Below are positions 4,297 through 58,428 of a DNA stretch of 64,000 nt, piece after piece. The DNA comes from Natrarchaeobaculum aegyptiacum. GTDB taxonomy: Archaea; Halobacteriota; Halobacteria; Halobacteriales; Natrialbaceae. Positions within the stretch are counted from its first letter, which is position 1, and each line of letters starts with the position of its first letter. A program made the translations under genes and the position numbers. The stretch is from the NCBI RefSeq assembly GCF_002156705.1, contig NZ_CP019893.1:620001-684000 (forward strand), written 5' to 3'. Below the pieces are notes generated by a model. The model had not been told where the DNA came from and searched no databases. It saw only the letters and a list, made by a program, of their open reading frames with translations.

Positions 4297-5359
4297 CGTC
4301 GGCCCCCGCGGTCGCGTCGGCGTCCGCGTCTGCACCGTGGCCGCTCCCAGCAGCCGACTCGAGGTCGACGCCGTCGGCCCCGATCCCGAGGCGAGCGCAA
4401 ACGGCCTCGAACCGGTCTCGAACGGCGGCCATCTCGCCGTCGTCGACGAGCGAGAGAACACCGCCCATGCCGACGCCCTCTTTCGCTTCGCCAGCGCAGT
4501 AGCGCTGCATCGAGACGTGTTCTCGACCCCGGAAGCCGGGATCGGTGACGGTCAGGTCGCAGTCGAGCCGGTCACAGGTCGCCTCGAGATCCGCACTCGG
4601 ATCCTCGGCGACGAACGAGGTGGTCGCGATCGAGAGTGGGTCCTCGACCCCGGCGTGGCGCAGGGCAGCCGCGATGGCGACCATCTGGGTGCCGCCGCCG
4701 AGGGTGACGTCCGTTCCCGAGTCGAGCGCCCCGGCGGCGATTCCGGCCACGGTCGCCTGGACGGGGTCGCCGACCGCACCGATCGCGCCGAGCGGATCGT
4801 CCTCGCAGGCGGCAGGTGCGAGGTCGCTCGCCTCGAGTGCCGTCTCGACGACGGCTTCCTTGCGCTCGAGGGGGTTCTCGGGCAGCGAGGAAGAGACGCC
4901 GGCGGGTTCGCCGAGCGCGGTGAGCACGCCCAGCGCGGTGGTCGTCCCGCCGGGGACGGTCTCACCGACTACGACCTCGTCGTCGGGCAGGCTGGCCCCG
5001 AACTCGCGGGCGCGCTCGAACACCGCCGACGCGTCGGGGACGGCGGTGGGTTCGCGGACGTCCGCACCGGCCGGGACCGAGAGGTCGACCGTGGGTGAGC
5101 CCGTGGGTCGTGCGAGACCGGCGTCGACGACGGTCAGGTCGAAGTCGACGACCTCGCGGACGGCGCGGGTGACGGCCGCGGGCGTCGGACAGCCCGTCGG
5201 CGAGACTGGCGTCACCGGCGAGACCGTCGGCCGGCCGTACTCGAGGATTTCGATGTCTGCGGAGGGCGTCTGGGCCATCAGTTCCGGCGCGGCCCCGGCG
5301 GCGCTGATGCCGTCGATCAGGGCCGTCTCGGTCGTTCCGGCGGCGAGAATTACGCGCAT
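4286..5359 (-). CDS. cobT: Archaeal CobT-type nicotinate-nucleotide:base phosphoribosyltransferase
   Basis: Predicted to activate the lower-ligand base to its alpha-riboside 5'-phosphate, the substrate that CobS joins to adenosylcobinamide-GDP. The 357-residue protein matches the archaeal branch of CobT. It opens MRVILAAGTTETALIDGISAAG and carries SPVTPVSPTGCPTP, LPDDEVVVGETVPGGTTTAL, ENPLERKEAVV and a glycine-rich LGGGTQMVAIAAAL. The C terminus ends in a low-complexity Ala/Asp tail. The ATG overlaps the cobY stop, since ATGCGCGTAA contains both signals. The archaeal CobT branch is functionally less well studied than the bacterial one, so the base used cannot be told from the sequence. Confidence 0.82.
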   Translation of the reverse strand: MRVILAAGTTETALIDGISAAGAAPELMAQTPSADIEILEYGRPTVSPVTPVSPTGCPTPAAVTRAVREVVDFDLTVVDAGLARPTGSPTVDLSVPAGADVREPTAVPDASAVFERAREFGASLPDDEVVVGETVPGGTTTALGVLTALGEPAGVSSSLPENPLERKEAVVETALEASDLAPAACEDDPLGAIGAVGDPVQATVAGIAAGALDSGTDVTLGGGTQMVAIAAALRHAGVEDPLSIATTSFVAEDPSADLEATCDRLDCDLTVTDPGFRGREHVSMQRYCAGEAKEGVGMGGVLSLVDDGEMAAVRDRFEAVCARLGIGADGVDLESAAGSGHGADADADATAGADGGP

Positions 5360-5979
5360 CGTCGATCACCTCTCTCGAGGTGCTCGTCGGCGAGCTGGGC
5401 ATCTGTCAGTCGGTTCACGTTGATCGCCAGTCGCGTGTCGTAGGAAACTGCTGTCATGGATTCGTCAGTGGTGCCGACGACGTTGACCCCGGTCGGCGCG
5501 AGGTGGTCGCGAGACTCGAGCGTCGCGTCGACGCTGACGCCGAGTCGACGTTTCAGTGCGACGGGGACGCAGACGGTCCGCGAGGCCGGGTCCGCCCCCT
5601 GACGTGCGAGTACCCGGTCGATCACGGGTGCCTCGAGCAACGGTAGATCCGCGGCGACCGACAGCACCGGCGGTTCGATTTCGGGGCGCTCGAGCAGCGC
5701 CAGGAGGTCGGCGACGTAGCCCTCGCCCGGCGTCTCGATGACGGTGACGGGATCGGTGTCGCGGCCGGCGTCGGGAACGCCAGCAGCCGTTTGCTCGAGG
5801 TGGGCCCGCGTCCCGGGGGCGTTCGGCGAGACGGCCGCGTAAACCGTCTCGACGCGACTCGAGGCGAGCGCCTCGCGAACGCGGTCGACCATCGGGACGC
5901 CCGCGATCGGGTGCAGGGGCTTCTCGTGGCGGCTCTCGAGGCGGCTGCCCTCACCGCCGCACATCAGGAGAGCGTCCAC
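5350..5979 (-). CDS. cobY: GTP:adenosylcobinamide-phosphate guanylyltransferase
   Basis: Archaeal replacement for the nucleotidyltransferase half of bacterial CobU. It transfers GMP to adenosylcobinamide phosphate. The 209-residue protein begins VDALLMCGGEGSRL, the nucleotidyltransferase signature, followed by EKPLHPIAGVPMVDRV. LSVAADLPLL has the Asp-rich metal-binding position typical of MobA-like enzymes, and the C terminus ends INVNRLTDAQLA, a usual CobY ending. The start is GTG 5979 because the preceding frame is inside cobS and lacks similarity. It overlaps cobS by 16 bases and cobT by 10, which fits a tightly coupled operon. Confidence 0.88.
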   Translation of the reverse strand: MDALLMCGGEGSRLESRHEKPLHPIAGVPMVDRVREALASSRVETVYAAVSPNAPGTRAHLEQTAAGVPDAGRDTDPVTVIETPGEGYVADLLALLERPEIEPPVLSVAADLPLLEAPVIDRVLARQGADPASRTVCVPVALKRRLGVSVDATLESRDHLAPTGVNVVGTTDESMTAVSYDTRLAINVNRLTDAQLADEHLERGDRRCA

Positions 5980-6725
5980 ACGATCACCCCCGCGTGGACG
6001 CCGACGACGCGGCCGACCTCCGTGGCCGCGCCGAAGACGTCGCCGTTGATTCCGCCGAGGTTCCGGGTCGCCCAGAGCCACGGGAGCCCGGCACCGGCGA
6101 GCCCCGCGACGAGCGCGACGGCAGCGGCTCCGTGGGGCCAGGTGAGGACCGCCGCAGGCACCGCCAGCGCCGCCGGCGCGACGAACGCGGCTGGCGTCGC
6201 CGCCTCGGTGAACCGCGATCCCATCCCCTCGTGGCTCGCCCGTCCGAAACAGGCCATCGCGGCCATCCCGACCCGGGAGCCGACCTCCGCGGCGATCACG
6301 ACGCCGACCGCGGTCGCGACCGGGAGGGCAGCGAGTCCGAGGCCCGCGAGTCCGAGGCCGACGAGTACGAGGCCGACCGCGAGGACCGCTCCCACGCCCG
6401 TCGTCGTGTCCTTCAGCACCTCGCGGCGTCGGTTCGCGTCGCCGTGGACGACGAACGCGTCACCGAGATCCGCGACGCCGTCTACGTGGTGGATTCCCGT
6501 CACGAGGTACACCGCGAGCACGTACGCGAATCCGACGGTCGGGTCCGGGACCCGTGCCGCAGCGAGCAACGGGAGCGCCACGAGAACGCCGGCGAGGTAG
6601 CCGACGACCGGGAACGCCGCGGGCGTCCGCTGTAAGGCCTCCCAGTCGCGCTCGTCGAACGAGACCGGGAGCCGCGTCAGGAAGCCGACGCCGCCGCGAA
6701 CCGCACGCGGGAACCGCCGACTCAT
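5964..6725 (-). CDS. cobS: Adenosylcobinamide-GDP ribazoletransferase (cobalamin 5'-phosphate synthase)
   Basis: Integral membrane enzyme that joins adenosylcobinamide-GDP to alpha-ribazole 5'-phosphate. The 253-residue protein has the family motif FLTRLPVSF near the N terminus, YLVTGIHHVDGVADLGDA with the acidic metal-binding residues, and RREVLKDTTTGVGAV. Six to seven hydrophobic segments follow. The start is ATG 6725, which overlaps the cbiB stop as ATGA; an in-frame ATG 15 bases upstream lies inside cbiB and is less likely. Codon use and base composition match the neighbours. The product, adenosylcobalamin 5'-phosphate, needs a phosphatase; see the HAD gene at the head of this operon. Confidence 0.9.
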   Translation of the reverse strand: MSRRFPRAVRGGVGFLTRLPVSFDERDWEALQRTPAAFPVVGYLAGVLVALPLLAAARVPDPTVGFAYVLAVYLVTGIHHVDGVADLGDAFVVHGDANRRREVLKDTTTGVGAVLAVGLVLVGLGLAGLGLAALPVATAVGVVIAAEVGSRVGMAAMACFGRASHEGMGSRFTEAATPAAFVAPAALAVPAAVLTWPHGAAAVALVAGLAGAGLPWLWATRNLGGINGDVFGAATEVGRVVGVHAGVIVWTLS

Positions 6726-7756
6726 CGTCGCACCTCCCACACCGGGTCGTACTCGAGCGGCGGTCGCTGCCCCGGCATCGTCACGCTATTGGCCAGTCCA
6801 GTCCCCGCGAGCGCCTCGAGCACCACTCCCGTCGAGACGACGACGAGCACGGCCAACACGACCGCGACGATGGCGGCGATCCCGACGAGCCGAACTGCCC
6901 GTTCGCCGTCGGCGAGAGTCGGGAAGTCGGCGTCGGTGTTCAGGTCGTAGGCACCCCGCTTCTCGAGGCGGACCTCGAGGACGGCGGCGAGCGTCGCCAT
7001 CGGCCAGCCGGAGTTCGGCGAGGCTGGCGTTCGTGCCCACCGTCGGACCCGCCACGGAGCGAGCGGGCGTCCGACAGCCAGCGCGAGCGCGAGTGCGCTC
7101 ACCCGGGCCGGGAGCCACATTACGAGGTCGTCGAGCCGAGCGCTCGCCGTCCCGATCGGTTTCGAGGGGTAGCCGAGCATCGAGTCGAGCGTGTTGACGC
7201 CCTTGACCCACGCGGCTCCGGCCGCCGCGAGCGGCAGCGAAACGGGCGCGAGGAGGGCGAACGCGAGCAGCCCGGCCACCAGTCCGTCCGCGAGGTTTTC
7301 GGCTGCGCTCTCGAGTGCGCCGCTCCGGAGTTGCGCCGGCGAGAGTGCCGAGACGTCTCGTCCGACGAGCCCGCGGATCTCCTCGCGGGCCGTCTCGAGG
7401 TCGCCATCCGTCGCCTCGAGCACCGTCGTCGTCAACTCGAGCAGCGAGCGGAGGCTGATCGAGAAAAAGAGGACGAGTCCCGCGAGGGCGACACCGACGA
7501 ACAGGTGGATCGAAAGCCCGGCGAACACGACACCCGCCGCCGCGCCCGCTGGGACGAGCGGTGCGAGCAGCGCGACGGCGACGCCCACGAGGCGCTGGCT
7601 CCGAGTGGAGTCGGTCCACTCGTGATCGAGCGCGCCGACGAGGCGACCGAACCAGGCGACCGGATGCCAGGCGGTCGGAGGCTCGCCGACGAGTCGGTCG
7701 AGCGCGAACGCGAGGGCGATCGCCGCGAGCGCGGCCAGCGTCCCCGTGACCGTCAC
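6722..7756 (-). CDS. cbiB: Adenosylcobinamide-phosphate synthase
   Basis: Membrane amide synthase that attaches aminopropanol phosphate to adenosylcobyric acid. The 344-residue protein has the CbiB hallmarks: ALDRLVGEPPTAWHPVAWFG at residues 18-37, four or five hydrophobic helices, AAENLADGLVAGLLAF, AWVKGVNTLDSMLGY and DLVMWLPARVSALAL. The start is GTG 7756, inferred from the GTGA overlap with the stop of the HAD gene. It uses the product of CobD (amine donor) and of CbiZ or de novo synthesis (cobyric acid), and passes adenosylcobinamide phosphate to CobY. Confidence 0.92.
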   Translation of the reverse strand: MTVTGTLAALAAIALAFALDRLVGEPPTAWHPVAWFGRLVGALDHEWTDSTRSQRLVGVAVALLAPLVPAGAAAGVVFAGLSIHLFVGVALAGLVLFFSISLRSLLELTTTVLEATDGDLETAREEIRGLVGRDVSALSPAQLRSGALESAAENLADGLVAGLLAFALLAPVSLPLAAAGAAWVKGVNTLDSMLGYPSKPIGTASARLDDLVMWLPARVSALALALAVGRPLAPWRVRRWARTPASPNSGWPMATLAAVLEVRLEKRGAYDLNTDADFPTLADGERAVRLVGIAAIVAVVLAVLVVVSTGVVLEALAGTGLANSVTMPGQRPPLEYDPVWEVRR

Positions 7757-54090: not shown

Positions 54091-55413
54091 TCACGTATCC
54101 GGGTTCGGTCGCGGAAGTGCCCGTTGCCGTCGCGGCGGAACGAAATAGTCCCCCCAGTGTCGCAATCTGACGTACCTGAGGATGCCGTTTCCCTGGCGGG
54201 GTCCGACGCCGTACTGGCGGAACTCGTCGCCGGCCATCGCTCGTCGCACGCGTCTGAACTCGGATAGCTCTCGCTGGAGAGAGACGAAGTGGAGCCCGCA
54301 GACGTCGCCGTCGGTCGTGTTCACGTCGCGACGCAGGAGGACGGGGTCGCCGTCATCACGGGCTCGAGCGAGTTTCTGCGCGTGGCCGACGATGCCGCGC
54401 TCGCGGGCGTCATCGGCGATCCGATCGACGGTCTCGAGGACGCCGGGATCAGTTCCGAGTCGGTCGCCGTACTTGCCGACTGCCTCCCTGTCGGCGTGAT
54501 CCGGGCTGAACAGTCGCGCGACGCGCTGGTCGTGACTGCTCGCTTCGAACCAGCTTCCGAGCTCCAGCTCGAGCGTCTCGACGTGCTGGGTCGTTCCGCC
54601 GGCGAACGGGCCGTCTGCGATCGTCACCCGGTCCTCGGTCGCCTGGCTCTCCCGGAAGCCCGACCGGAAACCCATGAAGAACGGTGCCTCCTCGGGGACG
54701 GGGTCTCCGTCTGGGAGCCCCTCGAGTCCCTGCTGTCGTTCGGCCGGTAGTCCCGGCCCGACGAATCCCGTTCGCCGGTCGACGCGCTCGAAGACGTCCG
54801 CGAGCGACCCCGATAACGAGGTGCCGTCGAGGCGTTGGCGGTCGCCGAACAGCGCTTCCTCGACGGCGAGGACGACGGCAGCATCGTCGCTCGCGAGGTG
54901 CAACAGGGCGTCGTTCGTCGCCACGGTCACGTCGCTCTCGGCGGCGAGGACGGGCATCGGGTCGGGCTCCGGCAGGGAGACGCCCTCGAGCGACGCGTCG
55001 AATCGGTCGACGTAGGCTCGCGTGTAGCCGAGCGTGAAGAGGACCCCCTCGGGACCCCACGCGACGGCGCGCTCGAGATCACGGAGCGTCGTCTCGACGG
55101 TCTCGCGGGCCGAACCGTCGGGACCGCCCCGGAGCGAGAGCTCGAGAAAGACGTGATGGGCCGGCGGACGGACGTTCCCGTCAGCATCGTGAGCCAGCGC
55201 GTCGTTCCAGGCGTGCTGGCCGTCGGGAAGCGAAGTCGGATCGTCGACGCCCGGTGGGACGTCAACCGAGCTGTCGGACTCGAGGCAGGCTGCGAGTGCG
55301 GCGCTGGTGCCAGCTGCGACTGCCGCGGCTCCCGCGCGCAAGAGGGCTCTGCGCGATTGCCCGTCTGGCGACGGCGGGGTGACTGCCGTTCGATCGTCTG
55401 GGGCTGGGTCCAT
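54091..55413 (-). CDS. Tat-exported DyP/EfeB-like protein with altered GxxDG motif
   Basis: 440-residue precursor with a Tat signal (SRRALLRAGAAAVAAGTSAA). The mature part resembles dye-decolourising haem peroxidases of the EfeB type. The proximal haem ligand is His344 in VGHAQKLARA, followed by DPVLLRRDVNTTDGD and LHFVSLQRELSEF, which match the EfeB segments around RRGYSY and LLFVCYQHD. The distal GxxDG motif reads MGFRSGF, so the catalytic Asp is Ser251, though the next block (FAGGTTQHVETLELELGSW) aligns with EfeB. Peroxidase activity is therefore doubtful, but haem binding or iron release is possible. ATG 55413 is preferred over a TTG at 55440. It follows the amine oxidase-like gene after 42 bases. 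Confidence 0.75.
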   Translation of the reverse strand: MDPAPDDRTAVTPPSPDGQSRRALLRAGAAAVAAGTSAALAACLESDSSVDVPPGVDDPTSLPDGQHAWNDALAHDADGNVRPPAHHVFLELSLRGGPDGSARETVETTLRDLERAVAWGPEGVLFTLGYTRAYVDRFDASLEGVSLPEPDPMPVLAAESDVTVATNDALLHLASDDAAVVLAVEEALFGDRQRLDGTSLSGSLADVFERVDRRTGFVGPGLPAERQQGLEGLPDGDPVPEEAPFFMGFRSGFRESQATEDRVTIADGPFAGGTTQHVETLELELGSWFEASSHDQRVARLFSPDHADREAVGKYGDRLGTDPGVLETVDRIADDARERGIVGHAQKLARARDDGDPVLLRRDVNTTDGDVCGLHFVSLQRELSEFRRVRRAMAGDEFRQYGVGPRQGNGILRYVRLRHWGDYFVPPRRQRALPRPNPDT

Positions 55414-55455
55414 CGTTGTGCTGTAATTCGTCGCTCGCAATCGCTCGTCGCCCGA

Positions 55456-57381
55456 TCAGTACCCCGAGAGGTGTATCTCCGCCGCCGTGACGAAGTTCGA
55501 CACTCCCGACGGGTACGGAAGCTGGTCGATCGGCCCGATCATGAGCAGCCAGACGACGAGGCGTTCTCCCTGGATAGACCGGGCGTCGACGTACTGGGCC
55601 GGGTGGGCGAACTCGAACGGCGGCTCCGGTTCGGACAGCCGGTGAGCGGGGTACTCACCCGGCCCGATTTCGGACTCGTCGCGCCGGACGACGACGAGCT
55701 CGAGGTCCTCTCGGAGCGGAATGTCGATCGTTTCAGCCCCGTCCGGATTCCGAAAGCGGGCGATCGTTCCGGGCTCGCCCTCGAGGTAGAACTCCGAGTC
55801 GGGGGTCGTCCACTCGTCGCCGTCGAAGAGTTCGACCGCGGCGCCGTCGTCCGTGCCGGGAGTCACGTCGATCGCCTGCGCCGAGACGTAGTGCTGGACG
55901 ACGGGTGGGTCGTAGCTGCCGTCGTCCTCGTAGGTGTCTGCGTTCGCTTCGAACTTCTCCGTGAAGTGGGTGAGAAATCCCGGACCCGCCCGCCGGAAGA
56001 TCGGCGAGAACACGCCGTCCTCGTAGAACTCGTAGGCGATGTCGTAGTTGTACGGCCCGAAGCGCAGTCCGGAGTGAAAGTCGACGCTCTCCGTGCCGAT
56101 CGCACTCGAGTGGTAGTGCGTTTTGAGCTGAAACCCGCTGGGGACGTCGCCGCGGGCGGGGAAGTCGAGCCGCCCGAGCATCCCGGGACCGCCGGATTCG
56201 TCGCTGTGGACGTCCCAGAAGAGAAGGTCGCCGTTGAACACGGTGTCGCCGTCGGGAAAGTACCACTCGTAGGTGTTTCGCCCGTCTCGTGGTGGCATGT
56301 AGTAGCCCGTGAACGTGACCGGGGTATCGAGTGCCTCGAACACTGGGGCCCCCTCGTAGGACGCCGACATGGAGACGCCGTGGGCCGTCGTCGGCTCCCA
56401 CTCGATCGCCCAGCCGTCTCGATCGAAGGACTCCGGCGGGTGCTCCATCCGGTGGAACCCCTCGTTGGCCGTGTAGTAGGGCCGTAGTTCGGTCGGCACG
56501 TCGGGGACGGCCTCGAGTACCGACTCGGAGGCCGGCTGAACGGTGTCGACGAGGTCGTAGAGCGGATACTCCACGGCGTGGTCGAGAACCGAGACGTCCA
56601 CGAGTTCGGGTCGCTCCGGGTCCGAGCCGTCGATGAGTGCGCTGACGACCCGGACCGCGTCGCCGTCGGCGACGTGCAAGACCGCAGAGCCACCGTTGCC
56701 GTGCGGGAGGTCTGCCAGACCGAGCCCGGTGTAGCTGCCCGAGGCACCCTTCCAGGACGGGTACCACTCCAGGTCGCTCACGTCCCCCAGGGACTCGCGC
56801 ACCACGCCGGTCTCGAGAATCGCCTGCCCGATGGCCATCTGGTAGGGAGTCTGGGTAACCGTCCAGCTGACGTCCTGTGGATCGGTGATCTCGAGGGCGA
56901 CGAGGTCGTCGCTGCGCCGGTCGACGACCCCGAAGACGGTCTGTCGGTTTTCCGCCGTCACGTCGAAGGTTGCCTCGTCGCCGTCGGGAAATCCCTCTTC
57001 GACCACGCTGAGGCCGGTCGGCCCCTGAATACTGACCGTCTCGAGGTGGTTCGTGAGTACCTCGTAAGCTTCGAAGCCTCCGACCCAGTCCTCGACGATG
57101 GAGTGGACTTCGGGATCGGCAAGCAGGGTTTCGACCGCCCGTCGTTTCCGGCCAGCGTGGATTCGTTCGTACGTGTCTCCCTCGAACTGCCGGACGGAGG
57201 CGAACTCGGCGGTGTCGAACCTGAGACTCGAGCCGTCGCCAGCCGGTGGGTCGCCTCGATCTGGGCTGCTCGAGGGATCTTCGGTCTCGCCAAACTGGCT
57301 GCACCCTGCGAGCGCCGTCACACTCCCGGCGAGTACGGCCCCCTTCACGTACCCGCGTCGAGATATCTCGCTATCGGTCAT
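55456..57381 (-). CDS. Tat-exported copper amine oxidase-like protein with altered copper ligands
   Basis: 641-residue precursor with an RR signal and lipobox (SRRGYVKGAVLAGSVTALAG, Cys next). From about residue 320 on it follows the copper amine oxidase fold: GWAIEWEPTTAHGVSMSASY, the topaquinone segment GPYNYDIAYEFYEDG with Tyr446, PPVVQHYVSAQAIDV, and RLVVWLLMIGPIDQLPYP. In true enzymes copper is held by HxH and a later His; here the first is Val495, the second His497 is kept and the third position appears to be Asp619. The topaquinone Tyr is kept. Cofactor formation needs copper, so either another metal is used or the protein is not an oxidase. The N-terminal 300 residues have the N2/N3-like strand pattern. 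Confidence 0.7.
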   Translation of the reverse strand: MTDSEISRRGYVKGAVLAGSVTALAGCSQFGETEDPSSSPDRGDPPAGDGSSLRFDTAEFASVRQFEGDTYERIHAGRKRRAVETLLADPEVHSIVEDWVGGFEAYEVLTNHLETVSIQGPTGLSVVEEGFPDGDEATFDVTAENRQTVFGVVDRRSDDLVALEITDPQDVSWTVTQTPYQMAIGQAILETGVVRESLGDVSDLEWYPSWKGASGSYTGLGLADLPHGNGGSAVLHVADGDAVRVVSALIDGSDPERPELVDVSVLDHAVEYPLYDLVDTVQPASESVLEAVPDVPTELRPYYTANEGFHRMEHPPESFDRDGWAIEWEPTTAHGVSMSASYEGAPVFEALDTPVTFTGYYMPPRDGRNTYEWYFPDGDTVFNGDLLFWDVHSDESGGPGMLGRLDFPARGDVPSGFQLKTHYHSSAIGTESVDFHSGLRFGPYNYDIAYEFYEDGVFSPIFRRAGPGFLTHFTEKFEANADTYEDDGSYDPPVVQHYVSAQAIDVTPGTDDGAAVELFDGDEWTTPDSEFYLEGEPGTIARFRNPDGAETIDIPLREDLELVVVRRDESEIGPGEYPAHRLSEPEPPFEFAHPAQYVDARSIQGERLVVWLLMIGPIDQLPYPSGVSNFVTAAEIHLSGY

Positions 57382-57528: not shown

Positions 57529-58428
57529 ATGCAATTCGTCGAAGAGATCGTCGTCGACGAGTTCCTCCCCACCGTCCGATCGTTGCTGGCGGGGGAACTC
57601 CGCGAGCGGGGACTCACCCAGAGTCAGGTAGCCGAGGTGCTCGGGATCAGCCAGAGTGCCGTCTCGAAGTACGCCCACGGCGAGGTCGCGACCAACGACC
57701 GGATCGCCGACGACGAACGCGTCGAGGCACTCGTCGCCGAACTCGCCGAGGGGCTGGCCTCCGGTGCCGTCTCTCCCGTCCAGGCGCTGATCGAAATCGA
57801 GGTCCTGATCCGAGACCTCGAGAGCGGCGGCGACCTGCTCGCACAGCTCCACGAGGAGGCCGTCCCGGAACTGGCCGATCACAGTGCGAGTTTCCGCGTT
57901 CACGACCCCGAAAGCGACCTGCGGACCAGCGAACGGGTCCTCTCGTCGCTCCGACGGGGCCTTCGCATCCTCGAGACGGCAAGTGGCTTCGCGAGCCTGA
58001 TCCCGGCGGTGGGGTCGAATCTGGTGGCCTGTACGCCCGACGCCGAGGACGTCGACGACGTCGCCGGCGTCCCCGGACGCATCTTCGACGTCAAAGGGCA
58101 GGCCTCGATCCCGGCCGACCCGGAATTCGGCGTCTCCGAGCACGTCGCGACCGTCCTGCTGGCCGCCCGCGAGAACGGCGCGGACGTCTCGGCGGCGGTC
58201 AACATCCGGTACGACGAGGACCTGCTCGAGGCCCTCGACGACCACGGAAACGTCACCGCGGAGTTCGACGAGTCGGGAGACATCGCCGAGAGTATCGCCG
58301 ACGCCCTCGAGGCGGAACCGGAGGCGACGGTGCTGTACCAGACCGGCGGCATGGGCATCGAACCGCTGATCTACGTGCTCGGGACCGACGCCGAGTCGGT
58401 CGCCGACGCCGTTCGCGAACTGCTCTGA
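57529..58428 (+). CDS. thiR: Thiamine-responsive transcriptional regulator ThiR (HTH plus ThiN)
   Basis: 299-residue regulator. Residues 1-80 form a helix-turn-helix of the Xre/HTH_3 type (GLTQSQVAEVLGISQSAVSK). Residues about 130-299 are a ThiN domain (GRIFDVKGQASIPADPEFGV, EHVATVLLAARENGADVSAAV, ATVLYQTGGMGIEPLIYVLG), the thiamine-phosphate synthase fold used here for ligand sensing. A protein of this design represses thi4 and thiC in Haloferax volcanii; by homology the same role is expected, and thi4 is 3 kb away in this window. The ThiN catalytic residues are not expected to be needed. One base separates it from the next gene. Confidence 0.9.
   Translation: MQFVEEIVVDEFLPTVRSLLAGELRERGLTQSQVAEVLGISQSAVSKYAHGEVATNDRIADDERVEALVAELAEGLASGAVSPVQALIEIEVLIRDLESGGDLLAQLHEEAVPELADHSASFRVHDPESDLRTSERVLSSLRRGLRILETASGFASLIPAVGSNLVACTPDAEDVDDVAGVPGRIFDVKGQASIPADPEFGVSEHVATVLLAARENGADVSAAVNIRYDEDLLEALDDHGNVTAEFDESGDIAESIADALEAEPEATVLYQTGGMGIEPLIYVLGTDAESVADAVRELL

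Follow-up and report, generated by a model that had tools for sequence, protein, structure and literature searches.

A predicted haloarchaeal lipoprotein resembling copper amine oxidases lacks two of their three copper ligands and is encoded beside a DyP-like protein

The window analysed here is a stretch of 64,000 nucleotides from the 3.93-Mb haloarchaeal chromosome of Natrarchaeobaculum aegyptiacum (NZ_CP019893.1, positions 620,001 to 684,000), and it carries on its reverse strand a gene for a protein resembling copper amine oxidases (CAOs), followed downstream by a gene of the DUF7405 family. Members of the CAO-like family are annotated as hypothetical in RefSeq. As set out below, the protein has lost part of the CAO copper site, appears to have kept counterparts of the residues on the substrate side, and stands in a fixed association with its neighbor.

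The gene pair and its family

The pair comprises the following features.

55456-57381, reverse strand: CAO-like protein of 641 residues, member of clade A (open reading frame and coordinates confirmed; placed by family alignment)
57301-57381, reverse strand: predicted twin-arginine translocation (Tat) signal and lipobox, residues 1-27 (SRRGYVK...LAGC27), read from the sequence
55414-55455, no strand: intergenic gap of the pair, 42 bases
54091-55413, reverse strand: DUF7405 protein (PF24152, E 4e-142), DyP/EfeB-like, with a Tat signal

Searches of whole genomes and plasmids yielded 58 distinct full-length members of the CAO-like family, all haloarchaeal, which fall into the window's clade A (18), clade B (29), C3 (6) and a divergent group D (5) with identities of 27-29%. 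In a tree of 26 sequences, the window's group was supported at 100/100 and the C3 branch was supported as well. No relatives were found in viral contigs, a phylum-wide profile search gave matches beyond the known members in the signal region only, and the window's own genome harbors no true CAO. A literature search, with subscription papers outside it, returned no mention of CAOs together with haloarchaea and none of DUF7405.

The twin-arginine pair of the signal was kept in all 26 aligned members of the family and Cys27 in 18/18 clade-A proteins. The Tat export proposed in the initial annotation is supported, and the protein is predicted to be a membrane-anchored, extracellular Tat lipoprotein. 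The two-gene unit described there was likewise confirmed, and a search for co-occurrence of the two genes found DUF7405 directly downstream and on the same strand in every one of the 18 clade-A genomes, at gaps of about 5-46 bases and with variable outer neighbors. By comparison, DUF7405 adjoins none of the 40 relatives outside clade A, the nearest copy lying 3.9 kb away. The DUF7405 copies associated with CAO-like genes form a branch of their own, and within clade A pairwise identity between the CAO-like proteins rises with that between their DUF7405 partners (r=0.91), a correlation to which shared ancestry contributes.

Kinship to copper amine oxidases

No CAO model in Pfam or NCBIfam matched the 641-residue protein (PF01179: none at E<=1), compared with about E 1e-150 for haloarchaeal CAOs against PF01179, and sequence searches of the PDB with the single protein and with a 26-sequence profile retrieved no CAO chain; the kinship of this family to CAOs is a remote one. 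Structures were predicted with AlphaFold for the full-length protein and, in a second model, for D4 only, using the window protein and five close relatives as input (predicted local distance difference test scores, pLDDT, of 40 and 32, respectively). When the full-length model was compared with the PDB using Foldseek, the top ten matches were all CAOs (E 7e-5 to 2e-3, 650-750 columns), at low template-modeling scores, so that the result establishes correctly ordered local structure but not a fold that can be trusted. The same search with the D4-only model retrieved no CAO and nothing useful.

Using hhalign, the CAO-like family aligned with haloarchaeal CAOs at E 0.027, which alone is not significant, and a broader, less redundant family set scored 32.6 against 26 CAOs, whereas 25 block-shuffles reached 23.1 at most. 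Since profile scores alone are not decisive, collinearity and fold matches were required in addition. When four segments (D3 start, D4 start, quinone motif and third-ligand region) were aligned separately, each found its best place at the collinear CAO position, as exemplified by DARSIQGERLVVWLLM, which aligned with the CAO stretch ADRDIVDEDVVVWYTL. Moreover, the motif of the divergent relatives, GPYRYLIDWNFHDDG, fits CAO motifs such as GNYDYIFNWYFYQD without gaps and, like them, has a Trp six positions downstream of the quinone tyrosine.

Overall, several converging, indirect lines from sequence and predicted structure make a CAO ancestry of the haloarchaeal family highly probable, and a CAO-like fold, with the order of blocks put forward in the initial annotation, is supported by evidence of moderate strength, namely the Foldseek matches of a low-confidence model and the collinear profile alignments. 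One could also suppose that motif likeness and fold matches are coincidental and that no relationship to CAOs exists, given that sequence profiles miss CAOs, that shuffled CAO profiles sometimes score equally high and that D4 modeled by itself resembles none of them. This appears very unlikely in view of the uniform top ten of the full-length model, the collinearity of the four segments and the ungapped fit of the divergent motif. We do not claim membership of the CAO family for the protein, because tests for a PF01179 match, for the complete set of three His and for the consensus motif all came out negative.

Residues at the active site

The residues bearing on the CAO active site are listed below.

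55891-55899, reverse strand: Val495-Gln-His497 at the position of the CAO HxH copper ligands; first His lost, second kept
55516-55551, reverse strand: Trp611-Pro622, WLLMIGPIDQLP, third-ligand region (CAO WxTxGxxH); His absent, by independent segment alignment
56014-56058, reverse strand: Gly442-Gly456, GPYNYDIAYEFYEDG, counterpart of the topaquinone (TPQ) motif; Tyr444 at 56050-56052 aligns with TPQ
56302-56304, reverse strand: Tyr360, aligned by hhalign with AGAO Tyr284; present in 53/53 outside the divergent clade
56266-56268, reverse strand: Glu372, tentative equivalent of the AGAO catalytic base Asp298, placed by eye at low alignment confidence

CAOs are taken to need a copper site of three His for making topaquinone and for using oxygen. 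In the window protein, the first two ligand positions indeed read VxH (Val495, His497) instead of HxH, and LMIGPIDQLP stands where CAOs have WxTxGxxH, leaving Ile618 and Asp619 at the third-ligand positions. Across the family, position 495 (CAO His431) is Val, Leu or Ile in 18/18 clade-A proteins and never His among the 58, whereas position 497 (CAO His433) is His in all of clade A and in some other relatives. At position 618 (CAO His592) His occurs in 0/58 and at position 619 in one relative, and at neither of them within clade A. The loss of two copper ligands noted in the initial annotation thus holds for clade A, but not as an individual loss, since the whole haloarchaeal family is without the CAO copper site.

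A topaquinone motif had also been proposed, with Tyr446 as the quinone residue; the motif GPYNYDIAYEFYEDG is present, but Tyr444 fits this role better. All hhalign alignments ran ungapped through the motif with high posterior confidence and placed Tyr444 on the TPQ tyrosine (AGAO Tyr382) and Tyr446 on AGAO Tyr384, and it is in this same register that the motif of the divergent relatives fits the CAO pattern GNYDYxFxWxFYxDG. Both tyrosines are conserved in 52/58 proteins, and Pro443 takes the place of the CAO Asn before the quinone, with Pro likewise in 52/58. The CAO consensus is found in neither register: in that of the profiles Tyr444 stands between Pro443 and Asn445, and in the alternative register on Tyr446 the sequence N-Y-D is present and the Thr is absent.

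In CAOs, the residue equivalent to AGAO Tyr284 forms a hydrogen bond to the quinone. Its counterpart Tyr360 is followed after 12 residues (14 in CAOs) by Glu372, a position that is Glu or Asp in 53/53 proteins outside the divergent clade and in 53/58 overall. Taken together, the alignments suggest that the substrate and quinone side of the CAO site is retained (Tyr360, Tyr444, Tyr446 and tentatively Glu372) and that the copper side is lost. It does not follow that the cofactor should not form without copper, as had been concluded, because a different metal site could take over, or maturation could be assisted by the partner. Candidate ligands for such a site are provided by residues specific to the family.

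56206-56208, reverse strand: His392, family-specific, candidate ligand; present in 53/53 outside the divergent clade
56110-56118, reverse strand: His422-Tyr-His424, family-specific HxH, candidate ligands; 47/47 in clades A and B
56074-56076, reverse strand: His436, family-specific conserved His; 47/47 in clades A and B

His392, His422, His424, His436 and Asp434 are invariant throughout clades A and B (47/47), and His593 also belongs to the family's own invariant His residues. His424 is found in all 52 proteins with Tyr444 and Tyr446 and is absent from all six without them, a co-occurrence that is only suggestive of a linked site, since the joint loss seems to be one event. In the five group D proteins (L205-L209), the Tyr-x-Tyr motif and His424 are kept, a deletion removes the Tyr360 region and the other conserved His are lost.

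The invariance of these His residues, together with the presence of His424 in exactly those proteins keeping both tyrosines, would agree with a copper oxidase whose site has been relocated to His392, His422, His424 and His436 and whose cofactor resides on Tyr444 or Tyr446, matured with the help of the DyP-like partner. In two CAOs TPQ can also form with metals other than copper (PMC3382800), and a possible precedent for DyP-assisted maturation is offered by Streptomyces DtpA, a Tat-exported DyP-type peroxidase that is needed with the extracellular oxidase GlxA, which has a tyrosine-derived cofactor (PMC4736821). The likeness lies in an exported DyP-type protein paired with a predicted extracellular oxidase-like protein; GlxA, however, belongs to the radical copper oxidases resembling galactose oxidase and not to the CAOs, and DUF7405 is without the GXXDG motif. 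Against a relocated site, the loss of His and Tyr in C3 looks like a single event, and Pro443 replaces an Asn whose exchange to Ala in HPAO leaves only 5-10% TPQ. We regard a relocated copper site as a serious rival to the interpretation given below, albeit an improbable one.

It is also possible that the protein is a dead scaffold, which has kept the CAO fold for capturing a substrate or holding a partner without catalysis, and some clades have indeed lost the tyrosines or the base position as well. This is, in our estimation, distinctly improbable, since polar residues of a ligand-like kind are very strongly conserved in both main clades, which, like the fixed redox partner, suggests chemistry.

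Compared with CAOs in general (PF01179, PF02727/PF02728; AGAO, HPAO, TynA), the family shares the apparent fold, the order of blocks, a GxYxYxxx[WY]xFxxDG motif and putative counterparts of Tyr284, of the TPQ tyrosine and of Tyr384, perhaps also one of the catalytic base, and in one of its clades also the aldehyde dehydrogenase neighbors. It differs in having no detectable sequence match, no three-His set and a Pro for the Asn before the quinone, and in being a predicted Tat lipoprotein with a fixed redox partner, whereas the haloarchaeal CAOs examined are without a signal sequence.

Redox partners and possible function

DUF7405 is present in 172/194 haloarchaeal genomes. The partner in the window matches Dyp_perox_C below threshold (19 of 20 bits), and its best NCBIfam match, a weak one, is TIGR01412 (EfeB). 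The DyP motif GXXDG is replaced by GFRSG, in keeping with GF.[SA]G in 26/26 aligned DUF7405 copies, so that the gene, which had been taken for an altered DyP, is normal for its family and not special to this locus. A VGH[AST]QK motif is kept, the His of which is invariant in the same 26 copies and is a candidate haem ligand. Elsewhere in the window's genome (C1:3852000-3866000, L142), positions 4846-7536 on the reverse strand hold a second DUF7405 gene and, immediately after it, one for a His-rich P19-like lipoprotein that combines Iron_transport and DUF7350 domains. Such lipoproteins (Iron_transport, PF10634, plus DUF7350) adjoin ordinary DUF7405 copies at 9/17 loci, and this pairing, recurrent in several haloarchaea, has the look of a so far undescribed module for the uptake of iron or copper.

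Outside clade A, the CAO-like genes have other companions. A type-1 copper protein is adjacent or fused in 20/40 of these relatives and in 0/18 of clade A, the window included, as a divergent halocyanin neighbor (12), a downstream gene in clade B (1), an N-terminal fusion (4) or a downstream gene in group D (3). PF00127 was over its cut-off in the fusions L025, L212 and L213, while that of L211 was found by a family-built model only; the His, Cys, His and Met ligands are visible in the fused domains (L025/L066, L212, L213, L211). With 10-15 PF00127 genes per sister-clade genome tested, versus two matches in the window's own genome, random adjacency would amount to a few per cent. Some of the genomes concerned are close relatives, and the independent events are fewer than 20. 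That the association takes four distinct forms nevertheless speaks for a functional connection between the CAO-like protein and a type-1 copper protein.

One or two aldehyde dehydrogenases adjoin seven clade-B genes, usually together with a helix-turn-helix (HTH) regulator. At six loci (L056, L059, L062, L063, L111 and L232) the cluster consists of a halocyanin, the CAO-like protein, an aldehyde dehydrogenase, an HTH regulator without a Pfam match and a second aldehyde dehydrogenase, a cluster which we take to be reminiscent of tynA-feaB-feaR. Among the CAO loci read, that of a plasmid-borne tyramine oxidase of Phyllobacterium likewise adjoins an aldehyde dehydrogenase gene. A function based on a regulator or an aldehyde dehydrogenase is not transferable to the window protein, such genes being found at clade B only.

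The active-site copper of CAOs makes the quinone and helps to pass electrons to O2. We favor, at a probability of roughly 0.4, a model in which the window protein is an exported redox protein of CAO fold that has lost the CAO copper site and passes its electrons to an external one-electron partner. With the copper half of the site gone and the counterparts of the substrate half in place, electrons would flow to the DyP-like haem protein DUF7405 in clade A and to a type-1 copper protein, as a neighbor or a fused domain, in the other clades, and the protein would act as a dehydrogenase of amines or another substrate and not as an oxidase. The gene neighborhoods rather suggest such a dehydrogenase, since sister clades lie beside aldehyde dehydrogenases and blue copper proteins. 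The export signal, the missing copper ligands, the conserved residues and the association and exclusivity of the partners were observed directly; we infer the homology to CAOs, the direction of electron flow, the substrate, any quinone on Tyr444 or Tyr446 and a metal at the family-specific His.

Several points weigh against this model. No significant sequence match to CAOs was found; shuffled CAO profiles scored up to 32.5 in hhalign, against 26-28 observed with the first family set, and the score against another CAO set (29.1) lies below its null maximum of 30.7. The full-length structure model is poor and the D4-only model matched nothing. C3 proteins are without Tyr444 and Tyr446 and group D proteins without Tyr360, Glu372, His392, His422 and His436, so that a single quinone chemistry cannot hold family-wide. 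A copper protein encoded next door is no proof that electrons are transferred, and the P19-like lipoprotein that usually accompanies DUF7405 binds iron, a hint at metal handling instead.

The last point leads to a second serious rival, in which the pair is a metal acquisition unit: the invariant His, Asp and Glu of the CAO-like lipoprotein would capture iron or copper at the cell surface, and DUF7405 would oxidise or reduce the metal as EfeB does in EfeUOB. Consistent with this, iron uptake of the EfeUOB type includes a DyP peroxidase (EfeB) as well as P19-like and cupredoxin components, TIGR01412 is, though weakly, the best NCBIfam match of DUF7405, and the CAO-like protein takes in clade A the place that the P19-like lipoprotein often has beside ordinary DUF7405, the second copy of this genome included. 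Iron-oxidising uptake systems, too, include cupredoxins (PMC11966278). However, the clade-A pairs examined showed neither a permease gene nor a P19-like gene beside them, Efe systems offer no counterpart to the CAO-like protein, aldehyde dehydrogenases adjoin clade B, and metal capture would give no need to conserve the tyrosines of the CAO substrate side. We therefore hold this alternative to be unlikely, though less so than a relocated copper site; a novel mode of substrate oxidation is one possibility for the protein, the handling of metals the other.

Returning to the dehydrogenase model, its widest form would make the family a new class of exported dehydrogenases in archaea that arose from CAOs, gave up the active-site copper and left the acceptance of electrons to a blue copper protein, either separate or fused, or else to a haem protein of DyP-like kind; we put this forward as a doubtful extension. 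The DyP-like protein may, in addition, build a tyrosine-derived cofactor. Methylamine dehydrogenase, an unrelated protein with a tryptophan-derived quinone, has its cofactor built by MauG. Together with amicyanin it would be a working analogue, as it oxidises amines and delivers electrons to a type-1 copper protein (PMC12723479), but the window's clade has a DyP-like partner and no cupredoxin. If true, a family with the CAO fold, consistently no copper site, retained tyrosines on the substrate side and a neighboring or fused redox partner would show the conversion of an oxidase into something else. The family would be a testable case of partner-dependent chemistry, and it provides a first functional lead both for DUF7405, nearly universal in haloarchaea, and for proteins labelled hypothetical.

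Divergently from the CAO-like gene, at 57529-58428 on the forward strand, lies a gene in which an HTH_3 domain is fused to ThiN, a thiamine-phosphate synthase domain, and whose product is probably a thiamine-related regulator; of such HTH-ThiN genes none was seen at other clade-A loci, except in a genome of the same genus (L068), where this neighbor is shared with the window. Broken or truncated CAO-like copies occur in Natrinema-type genomes, in three pieces at L204 and as C-terminal remnants at L067 and L021, and the gene is thus dispensable in some lineages.
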